Of a DNA stretch of 34,496 bases, positions 2,001 to 27,360 are shown piece after piece. The translations under genes were made by a program, and so were the position numbers. The notes below the pieces were generated by a model. It did not search any database and was not told where the DNA came from. It worked only from the letters and a program-made list of their open reading frames with translations. The DNA is from a virus. Within the stretch, counting starts at the first letter, position 1. Every line of letters starts with the position of its first letter. The DNA is taken from IMG/VR virus record IMGVR_UViG_3300030419_005165, positions 1 through 34,496 of that record. One strand, 5' to 3'.

Positions 2001-2425
2001 TCACTGAGCAAACCCCTCAGCTTCTCTCGATTAAAAAAATGTGCCTCTTTAATTTCATCTTTAGATTGGCCTTCATATGCTACTGCGTAATGCTTATCCA
2101 CTAAATATTTACATAGACTACCCCAAGAATCTGAAACACTATCATAAATAATAAAATCACCTAATATGCGACCGAATTTTCCTCGTTCATCTTTGCTCGT
2201 TCGTAAGGTGACAGTCGATCCAACCGGACAATGACTTTCGACCATTTCTTTTGCGAGCAGTCCGAACTTCTTCTCTTCCAAATCCCGTGTGCGGGACTCG
2301 GGTGTATCAATCCCAGCCAGTCTAATACGTTGATTAGACAAAACAATATCGAAACCAAGATCAATATCAACATCAACGGTATCACCATCAACCACTTTAA
2401 TAATTCTACTATTATATTCATACAT
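1997..2425 (-). CDS. Staphylococcal-nuclease-like (thermonuclease) protein
   Basis: 142 aa SNase-fold nuclease. Counting from the ATG at 2425, the catalytic residues fall at R35, D40 and E43 (in RIRLAGIDTPES) and R86 (KFGRILGD), almost the same numbering as mature staphylococcal nuclease (R35, D40, E43, R87). The N-terminal VVDGDTVDVDIDLGF is the typical first strands with the calcium-ligand aspartate. It should be a Ca-dependent phosphodiesterase acting on DNA or RNA, perhaps in host nucleic acid breakdown. No signal peptide. A start 24 nt further upstream (2449) is also open; 2425 fits the family and gives an 8-nt overlap with iscU, whereas 2449 has no ribosome site. Confidence 0.88.
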   Translation of the reverse strand: MYEYNSRIIKVVDGDTVDVDIDLGFDIVLSNQRIRLAGIDTPESRTRDLEEKKFGLLAKEMVESHCPVGSTVTLRTSKDERGKFGRILGDFIIYDSVSDSWGSLCKYLVDKHYAVAYEGQSKDEIKEAHFFNREKLRGLLSE

Positions 2426-2807
2426 TTTTACATCCGCATTTTGTTTCATAGTCTTTTATAGCAGCTTTAATAGCATCTTCTGCAAGAATAGAACAATGAA
2501 TCTTAACAGGAGGTAGTGCTAATTCTTTTGCAATATGTGTATTTTTAATTGATGATGCTTCATCAATGGTTTTACCTTTAACCCATTCTGTAACTAATGA
2601 ACTTGACGCTATAGCAGATCCGCATCCAAAAGTTTTAAATTTAGCATCTTCAATAATACCATCTTCAACTTTTATTTGAAGTTTCATAACATCACCACAA
2701 GCAGGAGCACCGACTAATCCAGTACCAACTTTTTCTGAGTCTTTATTCATAGCCCCAACATTTCTAGGATTTTCATAGTGATCTACTAATTTATCACTGT
2801 ATGCCAT
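2418..2807 (-). CDS. iscU: IscU-type Fe-S cluster assembly scaffold
   Basis: 129-aa full-length IscU. The three cluster-ligand cysteines are C37 (PACGD), C62 (FGCGSA) and C105 (IHCS), with D39, H104 and the HscA-recognition motif LPPVK at 98-102, all in the positions of bacterial IscU. It begins MAYSDKLVDHYENPRNVG, the canonical N-terminus, so the ATG at 2807 is chosen over an upstream in-frame ATG that would overlap the preceding gene. It should assemble [2Fe-2S] or [4Fe-4S] clusters with the host IscS. The gene starts one base after the stop of the Rieske-family gene, and an IscA-like carrier lies at 26920, so the phage appears to supply its own cluster assembly capacity. A phage-borne, intact IscU is unusual. 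Confidence 0.95.
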   Translation of the reverse strand: MAYSDKLVDHYENPRNVGAMNKDSEKVGTGLVGAPACGDVMKLQIKVEDGIIEDAKFKTFGCGSAIASSSLVTEWVKGKTIDEASSIKNTHIAKELALPPVKIHCSILAEDAIKAAIKDYETKCGCKNV

Positions 2808-2808
2808 A

Positions 2809-3897
2809 CTAGTTATTCTCCCATACTGCATTTTCTCTCATAGGATTAGTAGGATCACGACCCATCCATGCACCCCACTCTTCATAATAATGACGCATAC
2901 CCACTTCATCATGAATAGTATCGTTTTCTTTTCTCCCATGCAGTACATGACGATGTTCTGTACCTGGTGCCATTGAAACTCCCTGACCTTGAATACCTAT
3001 TAAATCTTCATGAAGATTACGCCCAAACGGTCCCCAAATTGTATTATGATGTTTTATCCGTTCTTTGCGTTCTTCTGGTGTATCTTTCTTTAGACCAAAT
3101 CCTCTAAACTCAATCATCACCTTATCTGGTGCAAGAGGTGTAACAATATCGGTACGTAATGCACTTCCTCGCAAGTTAACATTCATGCCGGGAAATAAGT
3201 CTACCATATACCACTGATTAGGTGGTAGTGTAGGAAAACTTAATGCACCTCTGTCCGCGCCATCAAACTTGTCATACTGTACCTCAAAGCTTCCTACATT
3301 TACATGACCATTAGGAAATCCTGTATTTTTACGAGCAAAATATTCTTCATTAAATCCTGTAACCCGATTAAAGTAGTGCATATAGTCATGGTAAAATTCA
3401 CTGTTCGTATCGTGCCACAGTTTATAATTACTTCCTATAATACCTTTGTGATAATGAAATACTTCAAGTGGTTCAGTATCAAGTGCAGATTGAATACAAT
3501 CAAATGCACCAGCTGTCCACTGTTCTACATCCATAGTAGGATTTGGATCAAGAGTTACCCATACCATACCACCATATTTAACTTCACAATGTAATTCTGA
3601 ACAATCAGCTAACCAAGTAGTATCATCTAGATTTCCAGATACCGATAAATTATAGGGATTTTCATATGCACGAACACCTTCTTTTAAATTAACCATCACA
3701 ATATTTTGTCCTGCAATTGAAGCAGTTCGATAATCATTTATTTCTGGTATTTCTGATTCATGACAAATTGGTATATAAACCTTTTTAAAAATTTTTTCTA
3801 TTTCTTCATGGTAAATATCCCAGTCACTATATATTCTAGAATCTACATAATCAACTGTGGGTTTTTTAAGCCATTGAGTGTGTTTACGTGCCGGCAT
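2809..3897 (-). CDS. Rieske-type ring-hydroxylating oxygenase alpha-subunit family protein lacking the Rieske cluster ligands
   Basis: 362 aa. The N-terminal part follows the family (ICHESEIPEINDYRTASIAGQNIVMV, residues 45-69, then VRAYEN at 75-80). Where CxH...CxxH should follow, the chain passes from N80 straight to PYNLSVSGNL, with no CxH and with N83 where the second histidine (CPYH) would be. About 20-25 residues are missing in frame. The catalytic domain has a plausible mononuclear iron site: E167, H170, H174 (EFYHDYMH) and D298 (HEDLIGIQGQG). The first two histidines are four apart, not the usual five. It may be a cluster-less relative that binds only mononuclear iron, or an inactive one. 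It ends one base before iscU starts. Confidence 0.85.
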   Translation of the reverse strand: MPARKHTQWLKKPTVDYVDSRIYSDWDIYHEEIEKIFKKVYIPICHESEIPEINDYRTASIAGQNIVMVNLKEGVRAYENPYNLSVSGNLDDTTWLADCSELHCEVKYGGMVWVTLDPNPTMDVEQWTAGAFDCIQSALDTEPLEVFHYHKGIIGSNYKLWHDTNSEFYHDYMHYFNRVTGFNEEYFARKNTGFPNGHVNVGSFEVQYDKFDGADRGALSFPTLPPNQWYMVDLFPGMNVNLRGSALRTDIVTPLAPDKVMIEFRGFGLKKDTPEERKERIKHHNTIWGPFGRNLHEDLIGIQGQGVSMAPGTEHRHVLHGRKENDTIHDEVGMRHYYEEWGAWMGRDPTNPMRENAVWENN

Positions 3898-15319: not shown

Positions 15320-15348
15320 TTGCTTTTAACTTATTTTTTCCCTATAAT
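15320..15348 (+). promoter_or_regulatory. Sigma-70-like promoter
   Basis: TTGCTT (15320-15325), 17-nt spacer, TATAAT (15343-15348), in the gap between the oxygenase gene and the 83-aa gene. It should drive the 83-aa gene, the tmRNA that begins right after it, and perhaps the genes beyond. The same hexamers and spacing recur at 33192. Confidence 0.8.
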
Positions 15349-15374: not shown

Positions 15375-15626
15375 ATGAAAGCATATAAGGGTGTATTTAA
15401 AAAGAAGAATGGCGAAAATAGAACTATGGTGTTTTCAAGAATTGATGACTTGCCAACTTCTTTTGTTGCGTCTAAAATACAAGGAGCAGGTCAAGAACAA
15501 AAATATCCTGATGGTATGGAATTAGTTTGGGATCTGGAAGCAGATAGTTTTCGTGTTTTTAACTGGCGAACCTGTGAGGGTATGCCAAAGATGTTTGATA
15601 TAGAAGAAGACTTATTTATTGAATAG
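15375..15626 (+). CDS. Unknown small protein upstream of tmRNA
   Basis: 83 aa, unrecognised: MKAYKGVFKKKNGENRTMVF, then IDDLPTSFVASKIQGAGQEQ and VWDLEADSFRVFNWRTCEGM, a compact mixed alpha/beta composition. The ATG at 15375 is chosen for its GGAG 8 nt upstream. It has its own promoter and its stop touches the start of the tmRNA acceptor piece, so it may share a transcript with the tmRNA. Base composition is less AT-rich than its neighbours. Confidence 0.75.
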   Translation: MKAYKGVFKKKNGENRTMVFSRIDDLPTSFVASKIQGAGQEQKYPDGMELVWDLEADSFRVFNWRTCEGMPKMFDIEEDLFIE

Positions 15627-15949
15627 TGTCTCGAAGAAGGAAACAAAATAGACATACTGGACTCGGGGGCAGTACCCGACGCCTCCACCATAAGCACAGA
15701 GAGTCAAGGCCTCCTGCTTGGTAGCGCAAGTAAAAACGTAACTCTTATTCAACTAGGCCTGGTCGGTGTGCTTATTATGGGGGCGAACTAGGATCGACAG
15801 GTGTAGTAAAAGTAACTGGAGAGACAGGGATGACCGCCTAATAGGTCAACTTAAATAAACGCAAACGATAACTTTGCATATGAGGATTACGCGCTAGCCG
15901 CTTAATTTCTCGGGGCGGGCCACCGGCCTAGCAACAGAATTGGTGGTAT
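15627..15949 (+). ncRNA. ssrA: Circularly permuted (two-piece, alphaproteobacterial-type) tmRNA
   Basis: Permuted order: acceptor piece first (ending at 15690), an excised spacer (15691-15778), then the coding piece (from 15779). T arm: TCGGG (15663-15667), 7-nt loop GGCAGTA, CCCGA (15675-15679). Acceptor stem: CGCCTCC (15680-15686) pairs with GGGGGCG (15779-15785), with one G-U; then A and CCA (15688-15690). The 5' piece continues GAACTAGGATCGACAGG. The tag frame is 15861-15905, encoding ANDNFAYEDYALAA then TAA, ending in the LAA-type degron read by ClpXP. Spacer ends TAAGCAC (15691-15697) and GTGCTTA (15768-15774) pair and would extend the stem in the precursor. CCACC/GGTGG (15920-15924, 15942-15946) closes the last helix. 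Outer ends are approximate. It frees stalled ribosomes and tags nascent chains. Confidence 0.93.
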
Positions 15950-15956
15950 TTTTATT

Positions 15957-16457
15957 ATGCTTTACACTGAACCTTGGAAACATGACGTAATAGATAATTT
16001 TTTTGATGAGCCTACTCATGCATATTGTATAGAGTATCTTCAATCTTTTAGAAAACGTCAAAATACTCATACAGTAGTAAAAGATAAAATATTATTAGAT
16101 TATTTTGATAATATATTTACAGAAGAATATCTTAAAACAAATTTTCCAGAACACAGACCTTATAAATATCTTGAGAGTGTGGCAGAAGTTAATATCTGCA
16201 CAGATCAATTTTATTATGAAATACACGATGAAGCCATATATAAAATTTTATCTGTAGTAGTATATTTAGCTCCACGATATTCTAATGGCACATTTCTATT
16301 TAATAACTCCCAAAAACTTAAAAAACAAATAGTCTGGAAACCTAATAGAGCTTTTGCTTTTGCTGGCAGAGACGGTATTACTTGGCATAGTTATGGGCAT
16401 TGGGATAAAACAACTAGAGTTACAATAAATTATTTTAAAAAGTATTTTGAAAAATGA
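15957..16457 (+). CDS. 2OG-Fe(II) oxygenase-like protein with HxE motif
   Basis: 166 aa, P4H-like. IVWKPNRAFAFAG and ITWHSYGH with H144, then R154 (TTRVTINYF), fit the distal part of the family. The proximal motif is H90-D-E92, that is HxE in place of HxD; a few dioxygenases use Glu here. SVVVYLAPRYSNGTFLF resembles the VYLN..W..GG.L strand. It starts 11 nt after the closing stem of the tmRNA, and the only ribosome-site-like bases (GGTGG) belong to that tmRNA stem. Confidence 0.72.
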   Translation: MLYTEPWKHDVIDNFFDEPTHAYCIEYLQSFRKRQNTHTVVKDKILLDYFDNIFTEEYLKTNFPEHRPYKYLESVAEVNICTDQFYYEIHDEAIYKILSVVVYLAPRYSNGTFLFNNSQKLKKQIVWKPNRAFAFAGRDGITWHSYGHWDKTTRVTINYFKKYFEK

Positions 16458-16970: not shown

Positions 16971-17606
16971 ATGAAACCAATTTATATTTTAGGTGCAGGT
17001 AACTTTGCACAAGAGGTATACTCAGAAGTATTTTTACAAGGAAACGCCTCAGATCACGGACTTTTTAGCGGGTATATCTATATTTCTAAATTAGATAACG
17101 CCATATTAATTGATTTAGAAAATAATGAAAAAGGTTTTGAATATCCTAAAGATGCATGTTTTATTCTAGCGACTGGTGTTAAAAAATGGAGACAAAAATT
17201 TATAGAGATATTTACTAAAAAATATCCTGTAAATGAAGAATATTTTCCCAACGTATGGTCTGACTCAGCTAATATCTCACCATTAGCATCTTATGGTATT
17301 GGTAATGTATTTTTATGGAATACACTTGTAAGGGCTAATGCAGAAATAGGAAATTTTAATCTTATGAACGCTGCATCTATTGTTCATCACAATGTAAAAT
17401 TAGGTTTTAACAATGTATTACTACCACAGTCACAGATATTAGGAGATTCATCTATGGGTGACAATAATGTATTAGCATCTAGTTCTGTAGTAGTAACAAA
17501 AATCTCAATGGGCAATGATAATACAGTGAGTGCAGGTGAAGTAGTGTTTGATAATATGTCAGATAGAAAATTTTTTCAAAGCGGAATTATAACAGATAAA
17601 CCATGA
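16971..17606 (+). CDS. NeuD/PglD-type sugar O- or N-acyltransferase
   Basis: 211 aa. N-terminal Rossmann-like part (YILGAGNFAQEVYSE, 5-19) and C-terminal left-handed beta-helix with hexapeptide-like repeats (GIGNVFLWNTLVRANAEIGN; LGFNNVLLPQSQILGDSSMG; VVVTKISMGNDNTVSAGEVV). H139 and H140 in SIVHHNVKLG are at the place of the general-base histidine. Such enzymes acetylate sialic acids or UDP-4-amino-sugars with acetyl-CoA. This is the first gene of a long coupled sugar operon (16971-25675); its end overlaps the next start by 4 nt. An aminosugar made by the DegT enzymes would be a natural substrate. Confidence 0.85.
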   Translation: MKPIYILGAGNFAQEVYSEVFLQGNASDHGLFSGYIYISKLDNAILIDLENNEKGFEYPKDACFILATGVKKWRQKFIEIFTKKYPVNEEYFPNVWSDSANISPLASYGIGNVFLWNTLVRANAEIGNFNLMNAASIVHHNVKLGFNNVLLPQSQILGDSSMGDNNVLASSSVVVTKISMGNDNTVSAGEVVFDNMSDRKFFQSGIITDKP

Positions 17607-18403
17607 AATTTAATTTATATTTTAGAGCTAATGAATCAGCTAAAAGTGCTGGTAGTACAAATGAAGATATTACTAAAGAATCGTATAGAATAGGCACTCA
17701 CACAAAAGAGGATATTCTTAGAGCAGTATGGTTATCAGTTAATAATTCAGGAATTACTAACGAAGATCGTATCAGAATTTTTTGTGATGCAGTAAGTGCA
17801 AAAACTGTAACATGGATGGCTGATCAACTTAAAACAGAAGATTTTGAGTTTAAAGAGGTTCCTCCTTTAAGTTATTGTCCCGGCTTTGAAAGTCATCCAT
17901 TTCCTGATTTACACCCTGTTAGAATTAATTGTTCCCTTGCTCTTTTTGAACTTTTTTATGAAGAAATAGAAGCTGGTAAAGACGATGATGTATTTTATTT
18001 ATGTGAAGATGATTATCTTCATAGGCCTGGTGCTTTACAAGTGGCAAAACAATTATATCTAAATGGGTATAAAGGATTTTTTCTTCCCTATGATTATCCC
18101 GATAGATACACTCTTGATACTAATAGAAAAGCAGAAGTAATTCTTGGACCAGGTATACATTTACGTTCTGTTCCTAGTGCTACTTTTACCATGATGGCGG
18201 ATAAACAAACATGGATGAGATTTAAGTTAGATGTTATGAGAGGATCTGTATTTTGTGATGATGGATGGACATGGAAAGCTTTTAGCCAAGTTAATGCGTT
18301 ATGTCCTATACCAGGTCTAGCTTGTCATTTTCAAGAGGGCTATATCTCTCCATATGTAAACTGGGAAGAGATATTTAAATGGGCTATGTCACATGAACAG
18401 TAA
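17603..18403 (+). CDS. Glycosyltransferase-like protein (GT-A, DxD-type)
   Basis: 266 aa. LYFRANESAKSAGSTNEDIT starts the protein; VFYLCEDDYLHRPGALQVAK carries an acidic E135-D136-D137 in the place of the GT-A metal motif. LGPGIHLRSVPSATFTMMAD and FCDDGWTWKAF fit the acceptor part. The sugar donor cannot be told. It overlaps both neighbours (4 and 11 nt). No membrane segment is present, so it is probably cytoplasmic. Confidence 0.7.
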   Translation: MKFNLYFRANESAKSAGSTNEDITKESYRIGTHTKEDILRAVWLSVNNSGITNEDRIRIFCDAVSAKTVTWMADQLKTEDFEFKEVPPLSYCPGFESHPFPDLHPVRINCSLALFELFYEEIEAGKDDDVFYLCEDDYLHRPGALQVAKQLYLNGYKGFFLPYDYPDRYTLDTNRKAEVILGPGIHLRSVPSATFTMMADKQTWMRFKLDVMRGSVFCDDGWTWKAFSQVNALCPIPGLACHFQEGYISPYVNWEEIFKWAMSHEQ

Positions 18404-19034
18404 AAGACTGGAAGAAAAATGGCAGTTTCATATAAATAATAAAAAAAATGATATGCATCAACATTTTGATATGTTGAAGTCCATATGTATGGATTCAAAT
18501 ATAGTAGTAGAACTAGGTATAAGAGAGGTAGTATCAACTTGGGCACTTATGGCAGGATTAGCAGGGAGACCTGAAAGATTTGTAACTGTTAATCCTGAAA
18601 GAAATAAACTTGTTGAAAATTGTTTTCATATTTTATACTCTTATGATATTGTGCATCCTAAAGAATATGGTATAGATATTGATGAAATTAAGGATATAGC
18701 TAAAGAAAATGGAGTAGACTGGAAGTTTTACCATGTAAATACTCTTGAAACAGAAATACCAAATTGTGATACTATCTTTTTTGATACAGATCATACATAT
18801 GAACAATTGTCTCAAGAAATAAAATTACATGCAAATAAGGCTGGTAAATTTTTAGCATTTCATGATACTTCAAGATATGGTGGGGAACTTATTCCTGCCA
18901 TAAATGAATTTTTAAACGAAAACACTCAGTGGCGTGTTTTACACTGTGAAAATTTATGTCAAGGTCTCACTGTATTAATTAAAGCTCCTTTAGAGGAAAT
19001 AAAAGATGCGGGGATAAGTGTATTTGATGAGTAA
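18393..19034 (+). CDS. SAM-dependent methyltransferase (class I, CmcI/Methyltransf_24-like)
   Basis: 213 aa. VVELGIREVVSTWALMAG (38-55) is the SAM-binding loop region (ExGxxxxxST), IFFDTDHTYEQLSQEIKLH is the post-strand-4 acidic motif and the metal-binding type DTDH, and GKFLAFHDTSRYGG resembles CmcI-like and macrolide or rhamnosyl O-methyltransferases (HDT). A sugar O-methyltransferase role fits the operon. It starts 11 nt before the end of the glycosyltransferase gene and overlaps the aminotransferase by 8 nt. Confidence 0.78.
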   Translation: MNSKRLEEKWQFHINNKKNDMHQHFDMLKSICMDSNIVVELGIREVVSTWALMAGLAGRPERFVTVNPERNKLVENCFHILYSYDIVHPKEYGIDIDEIKDIAKENGVDWKFYHVNTLETEIPNCDTIFFDTDHTYEQLSQEIKLHANKAGKFLAFHDTSRYGGELIPAINEFLNENTQWRVLHCENLCQGLTVLIKAPLEEIKDAGISVFDE

Positions 19035-20037
19035 CTTTATACAATCAAAACCATATGATTATGTAAAATTTAAAGAATATTTACAAGAAGCTGTAAAAAC
19101 TAATCAATGGTCAAATTATGGGTGGGCTGTTCAAGAACTTGAAGAAAGAGCTAGACATCTTTTAAAGATAGATGGTACGAAGGCTGTTATTGCAACAAAT
19201 TCAGGTACTTCAGCTTTACACGCTATAGTTTATGGTATGCGTAGGCATGACAGTAAGAACCATAGAGTTACCACACAAAATTTTACCTTTCCATCTGCAT
19301 CATTAGGCCCTTGTGGAGGTCCAATAGTAGTTGATTTTGATGGCGATCTTAATATTGAAATGCGTGATAGTTTTTTAATTAATTACGGCAAAATAGTAAT
19401 AGTCACAAACTGTTTTGGTCATCTTCAAAATATTGAATATATTACAGAGCAAGCAACAAAATTAGATAAATACATAATTTTTGATAATGCTGCTACACCG
19501 TATAGTTTTTACAAAGAGTATAATAGCTGTAATTATGGACATGCGTCCTTTATATCACTACACCATACTAAACCTATTGGTTTTGGTGAAGGTGGTTTAG
19601 CTATTGTTGATAGGGCGTTTGAAAAATCTGTTAGGCAAGCTATAAATTTTGGTTATGATGATGATCATCAATTTGATGAAAGAAGTAGTAACTTTAAAAT
19701 GAGTGAAATTTCTGCAGCTGGAATATTACAATGGTGGGATCAATTTGATATTAATAATATGATGGAAACATATTTAGAAAATTATTATAAAGCTCATTAT
19801 AAATTAGTTTTAGAAAAAAAAGGTAGGCCTTATCCTAATCACTCCGATGAAAATTTTTTACCGTTCGTACTGCCTTGGGTATATGACGAGGAAAATCCCG
19901 TATCATCATTTGATCATGTTGTCTCTAAAAAATATTATAAACCTTTACGTTTTAATGACCCTGCCTTTCCTAACTCTAATGTAATTTATGATAGGATTTT
20001 ATGCTATCCTGTTCATGGAGATATAACATATGACTAA
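19027..20037 (+). CDS. DegT/DnrJ/EryC1-family PLP aminotransferase (second copy)
   Basis: 336 aa. ATNSGTSALHAIVYGM (56-71) is the cofactor phosphate region, IIFDNAATPYSFY holds D153, and FISLHHTKPIGFGEGG holds the Schiff-base K182. It is a nucleotide-sugar aminotransferase by family. The ATG at 19027 gives the 8-nt overlap typical of this operon; a GTG at 19018 is also open. The RmlB-like dehydratase that follows would make the 4-keto sugar such an enzyme needs, so the pair can be read as one pathway. Confidence 0.92.
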   Translation: MSNFIQSKPYDYVKFKEYLQEAVKTNQWSNYGWAVQELEERARHLLKIDGTKAVIATNSGTSALHAIVYGMRRHDSKNHRVTTQNFTFPSASLGPCGGPIVVDFDGDLNIEMRDSFLINYGKIVIVTNCFGHLQNIEYITEQATKLDKYIIFDNAATPYSFYKEYNSCNYGHASFISLHHTKPIGFGEGGLAIVDRAFEKSVRQAINFGYDDDHQFDERSSNFKMSEISAAGILQWWDQFDINNMMETYLENYYKAHYKLVLEKKGRPYPNHSDENFLPFVLPWVYDEENPVSSFDHVVSKKYYKPLRFNDPAFPNSNVIYDRILCYPVHGDITYD

Positions 20038-21001
20038 AACAGCAGTTGTTACAGGTTGTTGGGGATTCATAGGTAATCATTTAGTAAAAAAACTTTTAGA
20101 AAATGGTTGGTATGTCTATGGAATTGATAAACACACATATGTAGCAAATCAAGAACAGCTTCTTTATTTTACAGAAAGTTTTCCTTCAAAATATAAGTTT
20201 ATTGAAGATGATATAACAAAAATTAAAAGAATACCGCAATGTGATGTTATTTTTAACTTAGCAGCAGAAAGTCATGTAGAAAATAGTTTTTATGATTCTA
20301 AAAAATTTATTAAAAGTAATATTGATGGAGTTCGTAATTTATTACAGATAATTGACTGTACTTTAAGTTCTTTTGATAAACCTTTATTTTTTCATGTGTC
20401 TACTGATGAAGTATATGGTGATAAAGAAGAAGGTTATTTTGATGAAAACGCTCAACTTAATCCAAGTAATCCATATGCGGCTACCAAAGCTTCCGCAGAT
20501 TTGTTAATTCAGGCATGGGCAAGAACACATGGATTAGAATATATTATTGTTAGACCATCAAATAACTACGGTATTTTTCAATATCACGAAAAACTAATTC
20601 CACTATCTGTGAAAAGATTAAGAGAAAATAAATTAATAAAACTACACAATAGAGGGAGACCAATTAGAACTTGGACTCACGCAGAAGATACTATAGATGC
20701 TATGATGCTTTTATTTGAAAAAGCAGATAGGAATAGAGTTTATAATATATCTTCTGAATTTGAACAAAATAATTATACAACAGTTCAAAAAATTATAAAT
20801 TGTTATTTTATGGGCAGAGCAAAGGTAAACGTGCCTGACTATGAAAAATATGTAGATCTTAATTATGAAAGACCTGGACAAGATATAAGATATTCAATTA
20901 GTTGTAACCATCTTAAACAGTATGGATGGAGTCCTAAAAAAATATTTGATAAAGAAATAGAACATATAGTTAAGCATTACAAAGGTATATACACATGGTA
21001 G
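20030..21001 (+). CDS. NAD-dependent sugar dehydratase (dTDP-glucose 4,6-dehydratase-like)
   Basis: 323 aa extended short-chain dehydrogenase. TGCWGFIGNHL (8-18) binds NAD; FHVSTDEVYGD has T125, D126 and E127, the TDE dehydratase signature of RmlB; Y149 and K153 (YAATKAS) are the YxxxK pair; RPSNNYG and HRGRPIRTWTHAEDT-type segments are as in RmlB (RTWTHAEDTIDA here). It should convert an NDP-hexose to its 4-keto-6-deoxy form. At 323 aa it is slightly shorter than RmlB (~350). It overlaps the aminotransferase by 8 nt and the epimerase by 7 nt. Confidence 0.92.
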   Translation: MTKTAVVTGCWGFIGNHLVKKLLENGWYVYGIDKHTYVANQEQLLYFTESFPSKYKFIEDDITKIKRIPQCDVIFNLAAESHVENSFYDSKKFIKSNIDGVRNLLQIIDCTLSSFDKPLFFHVSTDEVYGDKEEGYFDENAQLNPSNPYAATKASADLLIQAWARTHGLEYIIVRPSNNYGIFQYHEKLIPLSVKRLRENKLIKLHNRGRPIRTWTHAEDTIDAMMLLFEKADRNRVYNISSEFEQNNYTTVQKIINCYFMGRAKVNVPDYEKYVDLNYERPGQDIRYSISCNHLKQYGWSPKKIFDKEIEHIVKHYKGIYTW

Positions 21002-22020
21002 AAAATATTTTTATAACAGGAATTGCTGGACTTTTAGGATCAACATTAGCTAAACGATTATTAGTTAATGGAAGTTATAACGTATCAGGTTGTGATAATT
21101 TTATAGGTGGAATAGAGTCTAATGTTCCATATGATTATATAGATTTTTATAATATAGACATTATAGATTATGACAAACTTAAAGATGCTATGAAAGGTGC
21201 AGATGTAGTATTTCACGCTGCTGCTCTCCCTTATGAGGGATTATCTGTTTTTAGTCCCGGTATGGTGGCACAAAGTATTGTACATGGTACTGCTAATGTA
21301 GCCAGTGCTTGTTTACATAATAATACGAGACTATTAATAAACTGTAGCTCAATGGCAAGATATGGGGCGCAAACTCCACCTTTTACAGAAGATATGCCTA
21401 GATCCCCAGAAGATCCGTATGGACTCTCAAAAGTGCAAGCAGAAGAACAGTTAGAATTATTACATAAATTACACGGATTAAATTATGTTACACTAGTTCC
21501 GCATAATGTAATTGGAGTTGGGCAAAGATATTATGATCCTTTTAGAAATGTAGTAGGTATCATGATTAATCGTTGTCTACAAAATAAAGAAATTATAATA
21601 TACGGCGATGGTGAACAAAAAAGAAGTTTTAGTAATGTGCGAGATTGTATTAGAGCTGTTATTACTATGATAGATTCTGAAAGAGATATATGTGGACAAG
21701 TCTATAATATCGGGCCTCATGAGAATGAAATATCTATTAAAGATTTAGCCTATAAAGTTGGTCATCATTGTAATTTTTATCCTAGAATTAAACACTTTCC
21801 AGATAGGCCTGCTGAAGTTAAAAACGCATTTTGCTCAAGTAATAAAATAATGAAAGAATTTAATTATAATACAGATATAACTACCGATGTAACAATTCAT
21901 GAAATGGTGTCTTGGATTAAAAGCGAGGTAGGTAATAATGGTAAACCTTTTGAATACCATTTAGAGTTAGAATTTGTTAAAGAAAATACACCAAAAACAT
22001 GGACGGATAAATTAATATGA
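20995..22020 (+). CDS. NAD-dependent sugar epimerase/dehydratase (GalE/WbpP-like)
   Basis: 341 aa. TGIAGLLGSTLAKRLL (8-23) is the NAD-binding loop; INCSSMARYG has the catalytic S118/S119; Y142 and K146 (PYGLSK) are the YxxxK pair; VGQRYYDPFRNVVGIMINR and IYGDGEQKRSFSNVRDCIRA are typical of UDP-hexose or UDP-HexNAc 4-epimerases. It has no TDE motif, which sets it apart from the preceding dehydratase. Exact sugar unknown. It overlaps the following glycosyltransferase by 4 nt. Confidence 0.9.
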   Translation: MVENIFITGIAGLLGSTLAKRLLVNGSYNVSGCDNFIGGIESNVPYDYIDFYNIDIIDYDKLKDAMKGADVVFHAAALPYEGLSVFSPGMVAQSIVHGTANVASACLHNNTRLLINCSSMARYGAQTPPFTEDMPRSPEDPYGLSKVQAEEQLELLHKLHGLNYVTLVPHNVIGVGQRYYDPFRNVVGIMINRCLQNKEIIIYGDGEQKRSFSNVRDCIRAVITMIDSERDICGQVYNIGPHENEISIKDLAYKVGHHCNFYPRIKHFPDRPAEVKNAFCSSNKIMKEFNYNTDITTDVTIHEMVSWIKSEVGNNGKPFEYHLELEFVKENTPKTWTDKLI

Positions 22021-22772
22021 GTGTAAAAATTATATGCCCTTTTGTAAATGAAACAGATGTAAAACCTTTAAGAGCCGCAATGTGGAATCTACCTATACAT
22101 TTTGAGATGGATCATTCCCGTATAGGCTCTGATATGATGTATCAAAAACTTTGGAATAAATTTTCAGAAGATGATATTTTTATATTACATGCAGATATGT
22201 TTCCCTGTGAAGGGGATGATACTAATGAGTGGTTTACTTCAGTATTAAGTTATGTTGACAAATATCCTGAAGCAGGAATGTTCGGATGTTTACTGCTATA
22301 TCCTGCTAGAGATGCAGAAAATAACTTTTTCATACAATCAGCAGGAGGAAAGTTTACAGATAACTCTCCTGATCATTTCGGTAGTGGGTTAGTTCTTGAA
22401 ACTCATGGTAAATTTAAAGATGATTTAGAGGTTGATACAGGACAATACGATTGTGTTAGAGAAGTAGCATGGACTACTTTTGGTGGTTTATATATACGAA
22501 GAGAAGTATTTAATAAACTTGGTAATTTTTCCCCAGAATATGAATGGACATATAATAGAGATGTTGACTACTGTTTACGTGCTAGAGAAAATGGTTTTAA
22601 AATTTATCAAATACCTGTAAGGTTAATGCATCATGAAAGTAGGGATAATAAAATTATTAAAGCTAATGATGAAGCTAAAACTAAAGCTGAAATGAGAAAT
22701 TTAGATACACTTAGAAATAAATGGAAAGATTCTCAATTCTATAAAACGCTTGACGAGAAAATAAATGACTGA
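22017..22772 (+). CDS. Glycosyltransferase family 2-like protein
   Basis: 251 aa. IFILHADMFPCEGDD is the DxD-like region, AWTTFGGLYIRREVFNKLG is the GG-x-(h)-RR..F..LG acceptor-loop motif, and YNRDVDYCLRARENGFKIYQ is the (E/D)D-x-D-x-C-x-R-x-x-x-x-G motif of rhamnosyltransferase-like GT2 enzymes, followed by the usual MHHES. Residues are therefore well conserved for an active enzyme. Cytoplasmic, no membrane helix. Coupled by overlaps to the epimerase and the small membrane gene. Confidence 0.87.
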   Translation: MSVKIICPFVNETDVKPLRAAMWNLPIHFEMDHSRIGSDMMYQKLWNKFSEDDIFILHADMFPCEGDDTNEWFTSVLSYVDKYPEAGMFGCLLLYPARDAENNFFIQSAGGKFTDNSPDHFGSGLVLETHGKFKDDLEVDTGQYDCVREVAWTTFGGLYIRREVFNKLGNFSPEYEWTYNRDVDYCLRARENGFKIYQIPVRLMHHESRDNKIIKANDEAKTKAEMRNLDTLRNKWKDSQFYKTLDEKIND

Positions 22773-22989
22773 TAAAGTATTTGTTACAAAAGAAAATTTG
22801 CAGAAAGCCTTGGATATTAAACAAAAAAGTAAAGTTGGAATTTTAACAACTATGTGTGCAGTGCTTTGGCTAATAATATTAATGCCTTTTATTTGTGGTA
22901 TCATTTTATCATCGCTCTTTATGCTTTTATTCACGATTCCTTTCTATGCAATTGATCAACTTATAATGAGGAGTACCAACAATGCCTAA
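22765..22989 (+). CDS. Small membrane protein within the sugar operon
   Basis: 74 aa. A polar first ~22 residues (MTDKVFVTKENLQKALDIKQ) precede a long hydrophobic stretch ILTTMCAVLWLIILMPFICG continuing through IILSSLFMLLFTIPFYAI, enough for two membrane helices with a tight turn. No family recognised. It overlaps its neighbours by 8 nt each. It could anchor the glycosyltransferases at the membrane or affect the host envelope; this is speculation. Confidence 0.7.
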   Translation: MTDKVFVTKENLQKALDIKQKSKVGILTTMCAVLWLIILMPFICGIILSSLFMLLFTIPFYAIDQLIMRSTNNA

Positions 22990-23686
22990 ACTTAGTGATG
23001 AGTATGTCAAAGCATGTTTAAAAATGTCTGATGCAGAAAAATCAAAATTAACAGATAGTGAAAGAGAACTTCACGGACAGTCATCAATAAAATTAAAAAG
23101 TTTTCTTAATAATATTTGTGCTAAAGATGGGACAAGATATTTAGAGCTTGGAGTATATAAGGCCTCTACCCTAGTATCTGCTATATACGGTAATAAAAAC
23201 ACAGAAGCAGTAGGGGTAGAAGATTTTACTTTCGATTATAGAGAGCCAAAAAAGTACATGGAAGAAGGTTGGCCTAATATGCGTTCACACATGTACGATG
23301 TTCTTCAAAAATATCAATTTGTTGATGACGTAAATTCTGAAAATATTAAAATTATTGAATCAAATTTTGCTGATGTATCTTGGTCATCGCAACAAAAATT
23401 TGATGTTATATTTTTTGATATTGAACCAGTTACGGCTGATATATATGATATCTTTTTTAAGAAAGTATTTAACGCTTTTTCTAGGCAATGTGTAGTTGTA
23501 TTTTCAATGTATTCACATGAAGAAGTCGCCCCTGTGCTTGAACAAAAAGTAGAACAATACTCTGATAGATTAGTTACAGAATTTAAACACCAGAGAATAT
23601 CATCAGGAAGTGCAGATTCCTTTGGATATTATAGTGGTATTGCAATTTATGGATTTAGAAAAAAGGCTTTCGCAAAAAATGATTAA
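22982..23686 (+). CDS. Class I SAM-dependent methyltransferase-like protein
   Basis: 234 aa. GTRYLELGVYKASTLVSAIY (50-69) is a motif-I-like ExG loop and KFDVIFFDIEP is the acidic strand-4 motif. The rest is unusual, so fold assignment is moderate. GAGGAG lies before the ATG. The next gene begins 8 nt inside its end. Confidence 0.68.
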   Translation: MPKLSDEYVKACLKMSDAEKSKLTDSERELHGQSSIKLKSFLNNICAKDGTRYLELGVYKASTLVSAIYGNKNTEAVGVEDFTFDYREPKKYMEEGWPNMRSHMYDVLQKYQFVDDVNSENIKIIESNFADVSWSSQQKFDVIFFDIEPVTADIYDIFFKKVFNAFSRQCVVVFSMYSHEEVAPVLEQKVEQYSDRLVTEFKHQRISSGSADSFGYYSGIAIYGFRKKAFAKND

Positions 23687-24509
23687 GAAAAGTGCAATTA
23701 GTTTAATTAGTTATGATGCTCATCTATTACCTCGTAGTATTGAAAGATACTATGATTATGTGGACGAAATCATTCTAGGACTTGATAAAGATAGAATCAC
23801 TTGGAGCAATAATCCTTTTACTTTTGAAGAAGGAAAACTTTGGGAAAATTTAAATAAAATTGATAAACAAAATAAAATTTCAATAATTGAAGAAAATTTT
23901 CACAAAAGTGATATTGCCATTGAAAACGATAACTATGAACGAAATTTTTTAAAAGAACAATGTTCAAATGAAATGATAGTTAGCATTGATGCTGATGAAA
24001 TACTTCTCGATCCTAAATCATTTTTTATAGATTTTGTCCCACTTACTGAAAGATATTTTCACAATTATGATATCTGTATGACTTGGGCTACTCCTTATAA
24101 AGAAATTGATGATACTACTTTAGTTATCTCAAATCTAGATGGAACTCCTTTTTTTGGAGAAAATCAAGGATTTATTACACATAAAAATAGTACCTTTACC
24201 TATGCTAGATGGACGGATAAAAGTCAATTTGGTATGGGAAGAATTTTAAGTCCCCTTATTACACTTCACTATAGTCTATGTCGTGAGAAAGATGATTTAC
24301 ATAAAAAAATTCACAATATAGGACACTCTGATATCGTTGAGGAAGATCCTTTCTATGATCTTTGGAATCAGGTAACTTTAAATAACTTTACTGAATTGAG
24401 AAATTTTAAAACATCAGGTCTAGGAGAAGCTCAATGGCCAGCATTATTTGCAGTAAGAACAGCAGAGCTTGAAGACTATTACTATCAGCATAAAAATGGG
24501 GCATACTAA
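23679..24509 (+). CDS. Glycosyltransferase family 2-like protein (DAD motif)
   Basis: 276 aa. SLISYDAHLLPRSIERYYDY and IILGLDKDRITW form the nucleotide-binding first half; EMIVSIDADEIL has D104-A-D106, the DxD metal motif. The C-terminal half is less typical (LHKKIHNIGHSD). The ATG at 23679 overlaps the preceding stop by 8 nt; an earlier ATG is open but lies deep inside the methyltransferase gene. The stop and the next start share one base (TAATG). Confidence 0.78.
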   Translation: MIKKSAISLISYDAHLLPRSIERYYDYVDEIILGLDKDRITWSNNPFTFEEGKLWENLNKIDKQNKISIIEENFHKSDIAIENDNYERNFLKEQCSNEMIVSIDADEILLDPKSFFIDFVPLTERYFHNYDICMTWATPYKEIDDTTLVISNLDGTPFFGENQGFITHKNSTFTYARWTDKSQFGMGRILSPLITLHYSLCREKDDLHKKIHNIGHSDIVEEDPFYDLWNQVTLNNFTELRNFKTSGLGEAQWPALFAVRTAELEDYYYQHKNGAY

Positions 24510-25675
24510 TGATAAACGTAGAAATATTAGGAAAATTTTATGATAATCATTCTCTATCAATAATAAATAGGCAATTAGCTTTATATTTTAAAGATTGTGA
24601 AAAAATAAATCTTTTTATAACCCCTTTAGATGAAATTAATCCAGAATATAGGGTAGATATTAAAACTTTACAAAAGATAAAATCTTTGGCAGAAAAAGAT
24701 GATACTAAAGATGAGATTGATGTTCAAATAAGACATTCTTATCCACCTATATGGAATTGGCCTACAAATCCTAAAACTAAAATTGTATTTATTCAACCTT
24801 GGGAGTTTCCTAAAGTACCATTTGAATGGCAATATCGTTTTGAAAATTTCGCTGATATGTTATGTGTTCCATCTGATTATGAAAAACAAGTTTTTTTAAC
24901 AGGCGGTATGAACCCTGATAAAATTATAACGATTCCAAATGGATATGATGAGAGTATTTTTAATCTAGACCCTGTTGATCCTTATCCAGGAATTGATCCT
25001 GAAAGGTATAATTTTGTATTTGTAGGAAACGGTCAATGGAGAAAAGGTGTAGATATACTTTTAAATGCTTGGAAAGAAGCCGTTAAAAGATTTGATAAAG
25101 CAACCTTAATTGTAAAAGATAATCCAAGCGTATATGGTGTAAATAATCTATTAAATGAAATATTAAAAATGGAATATAAGACACAATGTGCAGAAATTAT
25201 TTATATGGATGATCAATTAACAGATCTTGAGATGGCTAGCATCTATAAAAATAGCAAATTTGTAATCCATCCTTATAGAGCAGAAGGTTTTGGTATGCAT
25301 ATTCAAGAAGCTGTAGCTTGTGGTTGTTTTCCATTTTTACCTAATGTTGGCCCTCATACTGAATTTATACCAGAAGAAATTGGTGCAAGATTTGAAACAA
25401 ATCAATTAAGTGTAGATATTACTAATCCAGAGTTATTTGCTTTAAAACCTGGTGATTCTACTTCTTTAATGAGTACACATACGTTTATGCATGAACCAAT
25501 TACGCAACACGTAAGCCAGATGGTACAAGGTGTTTATCACCATCATGAAAAAACTGAATTGCTAAACTCAGTAAAAAATGTTACACTTGAAAATACATGG
25601 AAAAATGTGTGTAAAAAATACGAAGAAGTAATACTAAATGTAGCAGAATGTGAGTACATTCAAAGGAATAAATAA
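24509..25675 (+). CDS. Glycosyltransferase family 4-like (GT-B) protein
   Basis: 388 aa. The C-terminal domain has FVFVGNGQWRKGVDILLNAW and the retaining GT4 signature HPYRAEGFGMHIQEAVACGC, where E-x7-E (in EGFGMHIQEA) contacts the donor. IPNGYDESIFN lies at the interdomain hinge. A long C-terminal extension (after ~330) with MQGVYHHH-type residues is odd. It is the last gene of the coupled sugar operon. Cytoplasmic. Confidence 0.9.
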   Translation: MINVEILGKFYDNHSLSIINRQLALYFKDCEKINLFITPLDEINPEYRVDIKTLQKIKSLAEKDDTKDEIDVQIRHSYPPIWNWPTNPKTKIVFIQPWEFPKVPFEWQYRFENFADMLCVPSDYEKQVFLTGGMNPDKIITIPNGYDESIFNLDPVDPYPGIDPERYNFVFVGNGQWRKGVDILLNAWKEAVKRFDKATLIVKDNPSVYGVNNLLNEILKMEYKTQCAEIIYMDDQLTDLEMASIYKNSKFVIHPYRAEGFGMHIQEAVACGCFPFLPNVGPHTEFIPEEIGARFETNQLSVDITNPELFALKPGDSTSLMSTHTFMHEPITQHVSQMVQGVYHHHEKTELLNSVKNVTLENTWKNVCKKYEEVILNVAECEYIQRNK

Positions 25676-25676
25676 A

Positions 25677-26291
25677 ATGGAAAATATATATCATAGATAT
25701 TTGAATTTCCCATTTGAAATTCAAAAGCATCATTTAATGAATACTATTCCAGATAATGTACGACATATTGTAATTAATCCCTACAGGGATAAATCACTAG
25801 AAGCTCTACATGAACAGTTAGGAATTTATACTCAACACACAGAACTATTTTATACACCACCAAATGGGGGTGAAGTACCAATACATACTGATAATAAACA
25901 AGTTGATAGTAGAGCAAAAATTAATATAACTTGGGGTCCTGAAGAAGGAGTTGTTAAATGGTGGACTTCCAATGAGGAAGTTTTAGCTTATGATAATGAA
26001 CAAGCAGAGAGACTAATTAATAAGTATCAAGGAAATGAAAATTGGACAAATGTGCCTACAGAAAAACACACACTTGCATTAGGTAGAGAAGAAGATTGCA
26101 CATTAGTATATACGGCTAATACTAATAAAGTTAGTTTAATAAACGTAGGGGAATTACATTCAACTTATAATCCGCATCCAACAGAAGGAAGGTGGACTTT
26201 GTGTTTTATTCCCGTAAGTAATAAAATTAGAAATGGTGAATATATAACTTTTCAAGAAGCATTAGAGATATATAAAGATTATATTATATAA
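25677..26291 (+). CDS. 2OG-Fe(II) oxygenase-like protein, tandem copy 1
   Basis: 204 aa. H70 and D72 (VPIHTDN), H161 (GELHSTY) and R172 (EGRWTLCFIP) fit a double-stranded beta-helix dioxygenase. Start at 25677 is set by AAAGGA 7-12 nt upstream and by the matching N-terminus of the next gene (MENIYHRYLNFPFEI versus MENIYHRYLNLPFEI). The two proteins are clear tandem paralogues along their whole length. Substrate unknown. Confidence 0.75.
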   Translation: MENIYHRYLNFPFEIQKHHLMNTIPDNVRHIVINPYRDKSLEALHEQLGIYTQHTELFYTPPNGGEVPIHTDNKQVDSRAKINITWGPEEGVVKWWTSNEEVLAYDNEQAERLINKYQGNENWTNVPTEKHTLALGREEDCTLVYTANTNKVSLINVGELHSTYNPHPTEGRWTLCFIPVSNKIRNGEYITFQEALEIYKDYII

Positions 26292-26305: not shown

Positions 26306-26905
26306 ATGGAGAATATTTATCATAGATATTTAAATTTACCATTTGAAATTACAAAACATCCGATGTTTGATACAGAACCAACAGAAATGAAACATCATGA
26401 TATTAATCCTTATAGAGATCCTCTTGTTGATGAATTTCATAAAGACTTAGGATTAATAATTAATCACACAGAAGTATTTTGGACGCCTGCTGGCACATCT
26501 TTACCTGTACATGCAGACTATGTAACACTAGACAATCATGTAAAAATTAATATTACATATGGTCCAGAAGAAGGTCGAATTAGATGGTGGCAATCTAATA
26601 ATACACAAGTAGTAACAGATAAAGAAACTGCTAAACAAATGCTTTATAATGATATAGATTTAACAACAGCAAATGAGTTTAGTGATAGAGAACATACTAA
26701 TGTTCTTGCAAATAGAGATGAGTGTACATTAGTATACGAAGCAAATACTAATCGTCCAAGTCTTGTAAATGTAGGACAGCTACATGATACGTATAGCCCT
26801 CCACATGCTGGACGTTGGACACTTTGTTTTATTCCCGGAAGATCAAATGGTCGTGACATCTATTGGGACGAAGCAATGGAGATATATAAAGATTATGTTA
26901 TATAA
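26306..26905 (+). CDS. 2OG-Fe(II) oxygenase-like protein, tandem copy 2
   Basis: 199 aa paralogue of the preceding gene, with H69 and D71 (LPVHADY), H160 (GQLHDTY) and R170 (AGRWTLCFIPG). Conserved blocks shared by both copies include INPYRD, KINIT.GPEEG, VKWW/IRWW, ECTLVY.ANTN and the C-terminal IYKDY. Its ribosome site GGAAGTGATTTTAA is nearly the same as that of the IscA-like gene downstream, so the duplication unit seems to have included the leader. Sequence identity is roughly half by eye. Confidence 0.75.
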   Translation: MENIYHRYLNLPFEITKHPMFDTEPTEMKHHDINPYRDPLVDEFHKDLGLIINHTEVFWTPAGTSLPVHADYVTLDNHVKINITYGPEEGRIRWWQSNNTQVVTDKETAKQMLYNDIDLTTANEFSDREHTNVLANRDECTLVYEANTNRPSLVNVGQLHDTYSPPHAGRWTLCFIPGRSNGRDIYWDEAMEIYKDYVI

Positions 26906-26919: not shown

Positions 26920-27360
26920 ATGTCGGAGAGTGTATACAATCTTAAAAATTCTCTTGAAGAAAAAATTTTACGAGATTTCCATTTTCATGCCCCTGAAATA
27001 AATGAAGAAGTTCATGGGCAACTACCAACACTTACTAACAAAGCAAAAATATTTATTCAACAAACTTTACAAGAAAAAGATTCTTATTTTAGATTTGGAG
27101 TATCCGGTGGAGGTTGTTCTGGATTTAACTATCTAATGGATGAAGATACAGAATTAAAAGAAGAAGATGTAATGTTTTGTGAGTCTCCAAAAGCCGTTAT
27201 AGACTCTGTTAGTCTTAAATATCTTTATGGGTCAGTTATTGATGTTTCAGATAAAGGATTTGGGCAATCTTTAGTAGTGGATAATCCAGGTGCAAAACAA
27301 AGTTGTGGATGTGGAACTAGTTTTAGTTTTGATTTGGACTTATGGAATGGCAACTTTTAA
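26920..27360 (+). CDS. IscA/ErpA-type Fe-S carrier (A-type, HesB family)
   Basis: 146 aa. The A-type cluster ligands are C66 (GGGCSGFNY), C129 and C131 (SCGCGTSF), with the usual ~60-residue gap and CxC. The ~35-residue N-terminal extension (NSLEEKILRDFHFHAPEINE) is longer than in IscA (107 aa). Family members deliver Fe-S clusters or iron to target proteins. With iscU at 2418 the phage has both a scaffold and a carrier. The next gene starts 14 nt inside its end. Confidence 0.92.
   Translation: MSESVYNLKNSLEEKILRDFHFHAPEINEEVHGQLPTLTNKAKIFIQQTLQEKDSYFRFGVSGGGCSGFNYLMDEDTELKEEDVMFCESPKAVIDSVSLKYLYGSVIDVSDKGFGQSLVVDNPGAKQSCGCGTSFSFDLDLWNGNF

Follow-up and report, generated by a model that had tools for sequence, protein, structure and literature searches.

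A 2022 publication described two-piece tmRNAs of marine phages, among them the alpha-type genes of Melnitz and Mosig, with a count of 402 phages and 133 distinct tmRNA genes, of which 53 were two-piece and 50 of these marine or aquatic (PMC9004378). A 2025 database includes 79 tmRNA sequences from phages and 11,946 sequences of the permuted type (PMC11915505). Three lineages are known to have permuted tmRNA, namely Alphaproteobacteria, Betaproteobacteria and Cyanobacteria (PMC9004378, PMC11915505), so that an earlier sequence-only reading of the present DNA, which treated it as an alphaproteobacterial trait, was too narrow on this point. Mycobacteriophages and Bacillus phage G carry tmRNA genes as well, but these are not alpha-type two-piece genes. 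The hosts of these phages have one-piece tmRNAs.

The window analysed here is the whole stretch of 34,496 bases, a fragment filed as an IMG/VR virus record. Its tmRNA gene resembles those of Melnitz (MZ577097) and Mosig (MT647606) in that all are phage-borne, alpha-type and permuted, have an intact tag, belong to the same phage branch and lie tight against an upstream CDS. They differ in the tags, which are ANDNYVPVDYALAA and GEDNFALAA in Melnitz and Mosig, and in the neighbours, which are T4-like late-transcription genes in those phages and a WYL_2-like ORF on what looks like a T5-like fragment here; in addition, a glutamine riboswitch adjoins the tmRNA of Melnitz, whereas the window has none. 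Phage-borne permuted tmRNAs were also found by ARAGORN in the Ruegeria, Rhodobacter, Mesorhizobium and Erythrobacter phages DSS3P8, RcSimone-Hastad, Cp1R7A-A1 and vB_EliS-L02, but their sequences and tags are divergent from those of the window, and most of them lie on other long branches. These four genes (L004, L007, L006 and L005, in that order) are unannotated in the records. The phage two-piece tmRNA is a kind already known, and the mild surprise lies in its separation from host genes and in the bias of its tags.

Anatomy of the permuted tmRNA gene

In the 34,496-base window, ARAGORN called one tmRNA, of the permuted type and with the tag ANDNFAYEDYALAA, and no tRNA genes. A tRNA inside the spacer, suggested by the GCTTGGTAGCGC stretch, was dropped as a candidate because ARAGORN called none. 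The sequence-only reading had described a permuted tmRNA with a 14-codon tag of its own at this place and had proposed a search with the Rfam alpha_tmRNA model. The results showed that this model (RF01849) matched at 126.8 bits (E 1.8e-34) and the newer model tmRNA_permuted (RF04321) at 123.1 bits (E 7.7e-24), far above the gathering scores of 50 and 47, respectively. Together with reading of the sequence, these matches define a complete circularly permuted tmRNA gene at positions 15628-15946 of the plus strand; its place, its description, its separate tag and its location on a virus record were all borne out.

The gene has the permuted order of acceptor piece with CCA, spacer and coding piece, the last beginning at G15779. 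The acceptor piece (15628-15690, plus strand) contains the T arm, the 3' acceptor strand, A73 and an encoded CCA at 15688-15690; its limits follow from the cmscan alignments and the sequence, with the exact 5' end as predicted by the model. The intervening spacer (15691-15778, plus strand) is 88 nt long and would be absent from the mature RNA. The 5' part of the coding piece (15779-15860, plus strand), identified by cmscan and comparison with relatives, holds the 5' acceptor strand GGGGGCG, the D-loop GAACTAGGATCGAC and a pseudoknot-like pairing. The tag frame (15861-15905, plus strand), read from the sequence, ARAGORN and Rfam, comprises 14 codons from the resume codon GCA (15861-15863) to 15902 and the stop TAA (15903-15905), giving a short tag with a hydrophobic C-terminal degron, the canonical ALAA end. 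A terminal hairpin CCACC/GGTGG (15920-15946) with the conserved loop CTAGCAACAGAA, followed by a T-rich tail, was recognized from the sequence and by comparison with the related locus L010 (15920-15954 in all, plus strand).

The acceptor stem is formed by GGGGGCG (15779-15785) and CGCCTCC (15680-15686), which pair at 7 of 7 positions including G3-U70 and are followed by A73 and CCA, confirming the 7-bp stem and the genomic CCA that had been noted from the sequence. G3-U70 and A73 are established identity signals for alanyl-tRNA synthetase. We found compensatory changes in the pseudoknot-like pairing, which is ATGACC/GGTCA in the window, TTAATC/GATTAA in L010 and TTGATC/GATCAA in another locus, L017, and in the terminal hairpin, which is CCACC/GGTGG in the window and GCCC/GGGC plus seven T in L010, with only four sequences aligned across these parts. 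These changes suggest that the window RNA is under selection for structure. The terminal hairpin and T-rich tail may serve as an intrinsic terminator; a T-rich tail follows the permuted tmRNA in just 20% of viral and 23% of cellular genes, so this role is a conjecture for the window, and the 3' T-run was dropped as a general terminator.

The chromosomal permuted tmRNAs of alphaproteobacteria (RF01849; e.g. Caulobacter, Rhizobiales and SAR11) share the gene order and the tRNA-like domain with the window, as well as a 3' hairpin with the CAACAGAA loop. In contrast, the window scores lower with the alpha model than SAR11 genes do (127 vs 189-244 bits), and its region 3' of the tag is shorter than that of the model.

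The spacer-end helix and the upstream ORF

The spacer ends TAAGCAC (15691-15697) and GTGCTTA (15768-15774) pair with each other. Folding of the whole precursor gave the spacer stem and the acceptor stem together, with ACCA opposite TTAT between them. The folding energy was ordinary (z -0.57 for the spacer and -1.06 for the precursor), and as sole proof of the helix it was set aside as uninformative. Pairing in the helix register, measured over 97 distinct viral spacers, was 84%, with many pair types per position, compared to 59% when the partners were swapped (sd 1.3; highest of 500 swaps 63%) and 31-58% when the register was slid. The helix is thus real and covarying, and the pairing pointed out in the sequence-only reading stands. 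Cellular alphaproteobacterial spacers also paired in the same register (74% vs 48%), except for the SAR11 spacers that were read, so the helix is a common feature of alpha-type genes and no phage invention; we make no claim of novelty for it.

The helix likely aids precursor folding and processing. It is not essential, since near relatives can do without it: L010 shares the tag of the window and almost all of its mature RNA, yet lacks the helix and has a 15-nt spacer (16 nt in L017). The spacers of L010 (1833-1847) and the window are wholly different while the mature tmRNAs are nearly identical, indicating that the spacer turns over much faster than the mature RNA and its tag.

The tmRNA begins one base after an ORF of 83 amino acids (M plus 82 aa; 15375-15626, plus strand), and the next ORF downstream begins at 15957. 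Relatives of the 83-aa ORF are 52-94% identical to it. The family is WYL_2-like (SH3/Sm-like fold) and was matched by PF10902 in 9 of 9 members with a best E of 1.3e-4, the window's own ORF giving E 0.0046, below Pfam's cut-off. In nine of the ten viral relatives of the ORF, a permuted tmRNA follows it on the same strand; the sequence of the tenth breaks off too early to decide. Two further loci that were reached via the tmRNA alone (L071 and L080) have the same ORF upstream, and in L009 and L010 both the tag and the upstream ORF are as in the window.

A putative sigma-70-like promoter, TTGCTT-17-TATAAT, lies 26 nt 5' of the ATG of the ORF (15320-15348, plus strand). Sites of this type are found 24-30 nt before the second codon of the ORF in the window and in 9 of 9 relatives examined. 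The site of L010 is a perfect consensus, TTGACA-17-TATAAT, which was reached in 0 of 500 shuffles. Single sites are mostly weak; that of the window is not significant alone, 19% of shuffles reaching the same level, and it was missed by a promoter scanner because its -35 hexamer is under the scanner threshold. That the position stays constant while the sequence has diverged speaks for a real promoter. The candidate promoter, the 83-aa WYL_2-like ORF and the tmRNA therefore appear to form a conserved unit.

The degradation tag and the expected function

Tags ending in [YF]ALAA were found in 53 of 91 distinct viral genes and 10 of 142 cellular genes (Fisher 6e-18), and tags ending in D[YF]ALAA in 26 of 91 and 1 of 142, respectively (Fisher 4e-11), p-values that are too small because the tags share descent. 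The window tag has 14 aa, whereas cellular alphaproteobacterial tags mostly have 12-13 aa, and phage tags are longer. The phage tags may reasonably be read as a putative stronger ClpXP-type degron. The SAR11 tags had 9 aa in 11 of 13 cases (e.g. ANESYAIAA and ANDELALAA), and the SAR11 spacers read out had 11-12 nt; the comparison of tag and spacer with SAR11 that had been proposed for this gene, with its 14 aa and 88 nt, gave no match. We also noted a tmRNA of cellular alphaproteobacterial origin whose tag, ANDNVASQDFALAA, is phage-like and 14 aa long (L195 and G493, the latter equal to L300/L325); L195 falls among the cellular genes in the tree.

We consider it quite probable that the window carries a working-looking, phage-borne, alpha-type two-piece tmRNA which would act in host-dependent rescue and descend from a phage branch. 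Transcription would probably start from the host-type sigma-70 promoter and include the gene of the small WYL_2-like protein. The pairing and covariation show that the precursor folds with the acceptor stem stacked near the spacer-end helix. By analogy with known permuted tmRNAs, RNase P and the 3' processing enzymes of the host would excise the spacer, so that two RNAs remain, the acceptor RNA ending in CCA and the coding RNA starting with GGGG. As G3-U70 is kept, charging by the host alanyl-tRNA synthetase is expected. No smpB was found in the window (34.5 kb of its genome), three related contigs and six complete phage records with permuted tmRNA, in a search that recovered smpB in 10 of 14 reference genomes, so that host SmpB presumably loads the phage RNA on stalled ribosomes. 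Because ANDNFAYEDYALAA ends in the canonical ALAA degron, tagged products would be expected to go to ClpXP/ClpAP. The likeliest benefit would be that ribosome rescue is sustained while infection raises the level of broken, non-stop mRNA and host expression fails. The tmRNA of mycobacteriophage Wildcat is highly expressed in lytic growth (PMC7474061).

Alternatively, the RNA might mainly redirect proteolysis, its own tag sending host or chosen proteins to ClpXP and the amino acids being recycled for the phage, as already proposed for Melnitz (PMC9004378). The longer phage tags with their frequent [YF]ALAA end are consistent with such a role, and the promoter-like upstream site would permit early expression. 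However, tmRNA tags anything that is stalled, we saw no sign of selectivity, and the likeness of tags among phages is partly due to shared descent, so that we regard this explanation as rather unlikely and prefer ribosome rescue. Ribosome rescue and proteolysis of host products had both been suggested in the sequence-only reading; as possible roles they are plausible and have appeared in print before. The difference between phage and host tags permits a direct test of whether the tag alters how fast proteolysis proceeds in infected cells, or which proteins it affects.

Descent, phage type and host

Permuted tmRNAs were gathered from IMG/VR, phage records, 118 genome contigs, SAR11 genomes and alphaproteobacterial genomes; some IMG/VR contigs in the viral sample may in fact be cellular and misfiled. 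When 267 rows (118 viral and 149 cellular) were placed in a quick tree, 9 changes of group label were required, compared to 99 with shuffled labels, although many of its deep branches are weak. A careful tree was built from 65 rows; one of its branches (94/98) set apart all 37 cellular rows, including those of SAR11, and the window grouped with phages including Melnitz and Mosig (96/88). The alignment behind these trees has about 150 columns, the phage branches are long and the rates are uneven, a bias that could pull phage sequences together; after twelve rows, most of them long-branched, had been removed, the phage/cellular split reached 100/99. The AU test rejected a clade made up of the window clade and SAR11 (p 0.00463), and did not reject SAR11 together with all phages (p 0.067).

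The sequence-only reading had taken the gene as captured from the host, and its recent acquisition from the alphaproteobacterium that the phage now infects, whether SAR11 or another, would agree with the alpha model being the best Rfam match and with the spacer helix being common to cellular alpha genes. The separation of cellular from phage tmRNAs and the rejection of the window with SAR11 make a recent capture from SAR11 or another sampled host unlikely. Moreover, the tag pattern ANDNF..[DE]DYALA had no match in an 84,980-species genome collection, and the looser pattern ANDN....D[YF]ALAA was found in a single one of 385 alphaproteobacterial genomes; permuted tmRNA is present in 349 of the 385. 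We therefore think that recent capture is improbable. The gene appears instead to descend from tmRNAs in circulation among phages, a branch distinct from all bacterial copies sampled, with an ancient origin from some alphaproteobacterium being likely.

More broadly, we tentatively propose, at a little less than an even chance, that the permuted tmRNAs of marine phages are an old lineage of their own which has been passed among T4-like and T5-like phages, whose tags have shifted to the strong [YF]ALAA degron, and which is kept in this T5-like group as a unit of promoter, WYL_2-like ORF and tmRNA. If this is true, the published use of phage ssrA as a sign of a former host needs revision.

Two explanations in which the gene would have no role in rescue were weighed against this phage-lineage tmRNA. 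The RNA could be a decoy: by titrating SmpB or EF-Tu it would block trans-translation in the host, a role proposed for the RNA of phage DS6A, which has no tag; RNA of this tRNA-like-only type inhibits tmRNA (PMC4131195; PMC11915505). A decoy would have no need for the tag frame, resume codon, stop, pseudoknot-like pairing and 3' hairpin, all of which are kept with compensatory changes, and we find it very improbable. A non-functional remnant, for example of integration at the host ssrA, has next to no probability in our view: tmRNA genes are common integration sites (PMC9004378, PMC11915505), but this gene is complete with its pairings intact, it stands in the same place behind the same ORF in distant relatives, and no integrase was found among the window proteins checked, which are part of the protein set.

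As for the phage itself, the window encodes a D5-like protein (phrog_323, E 6e-31) and an NAD-dependent ligase (phrog_3869, E 6e-108), whose nearest phage relatives, at 35-43% identity, are in T5-like phages that infect Vibrio and enterobacteria. From these two proteins, a partial assignment, the window looks like a T5-like marine phage and not a SAR11 myophage. Melnitz has an alpha-type tmRNA, yet it infects OM43 strain H5P1 (PMC9004378), so such a gene does not fix the host. The view that the tmRNA supports an alphaproteobacterial host was not upheld, the D5-like protein and the ligase being nearest to those of gammaproteobacterial T5-like phages, and the host of a phage contig cannot safely be read from an alpha-type tmRNA.

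Other features were observed on the same fragment. A long run of sugar-related ORFs (16971-25675, plus strand) includes an aminotransferase-like, two epimerase-like and a methyltransferase-like ORF as well as glycosyltransferases, and resembles clusters for surface-glycan modification; one ORF has a GT4 match, and the other names come from reading the translations. Two adjacent similar ORFs at 25650-26291 and 26306-26905 (plus strand) both contain MENIYHRYLN..PFEI and have like ends, an apparent tandem duplication. Two genes for iron-sulphur assembly were found: one at 2418-2831 (minus strand) matched an IscU/NifU-N-like scaffold (PF01592, E 2.5e-53), and the other at 26920-27360 (plus strand) matched an A-type carrier (PF01521, E 1e-10).
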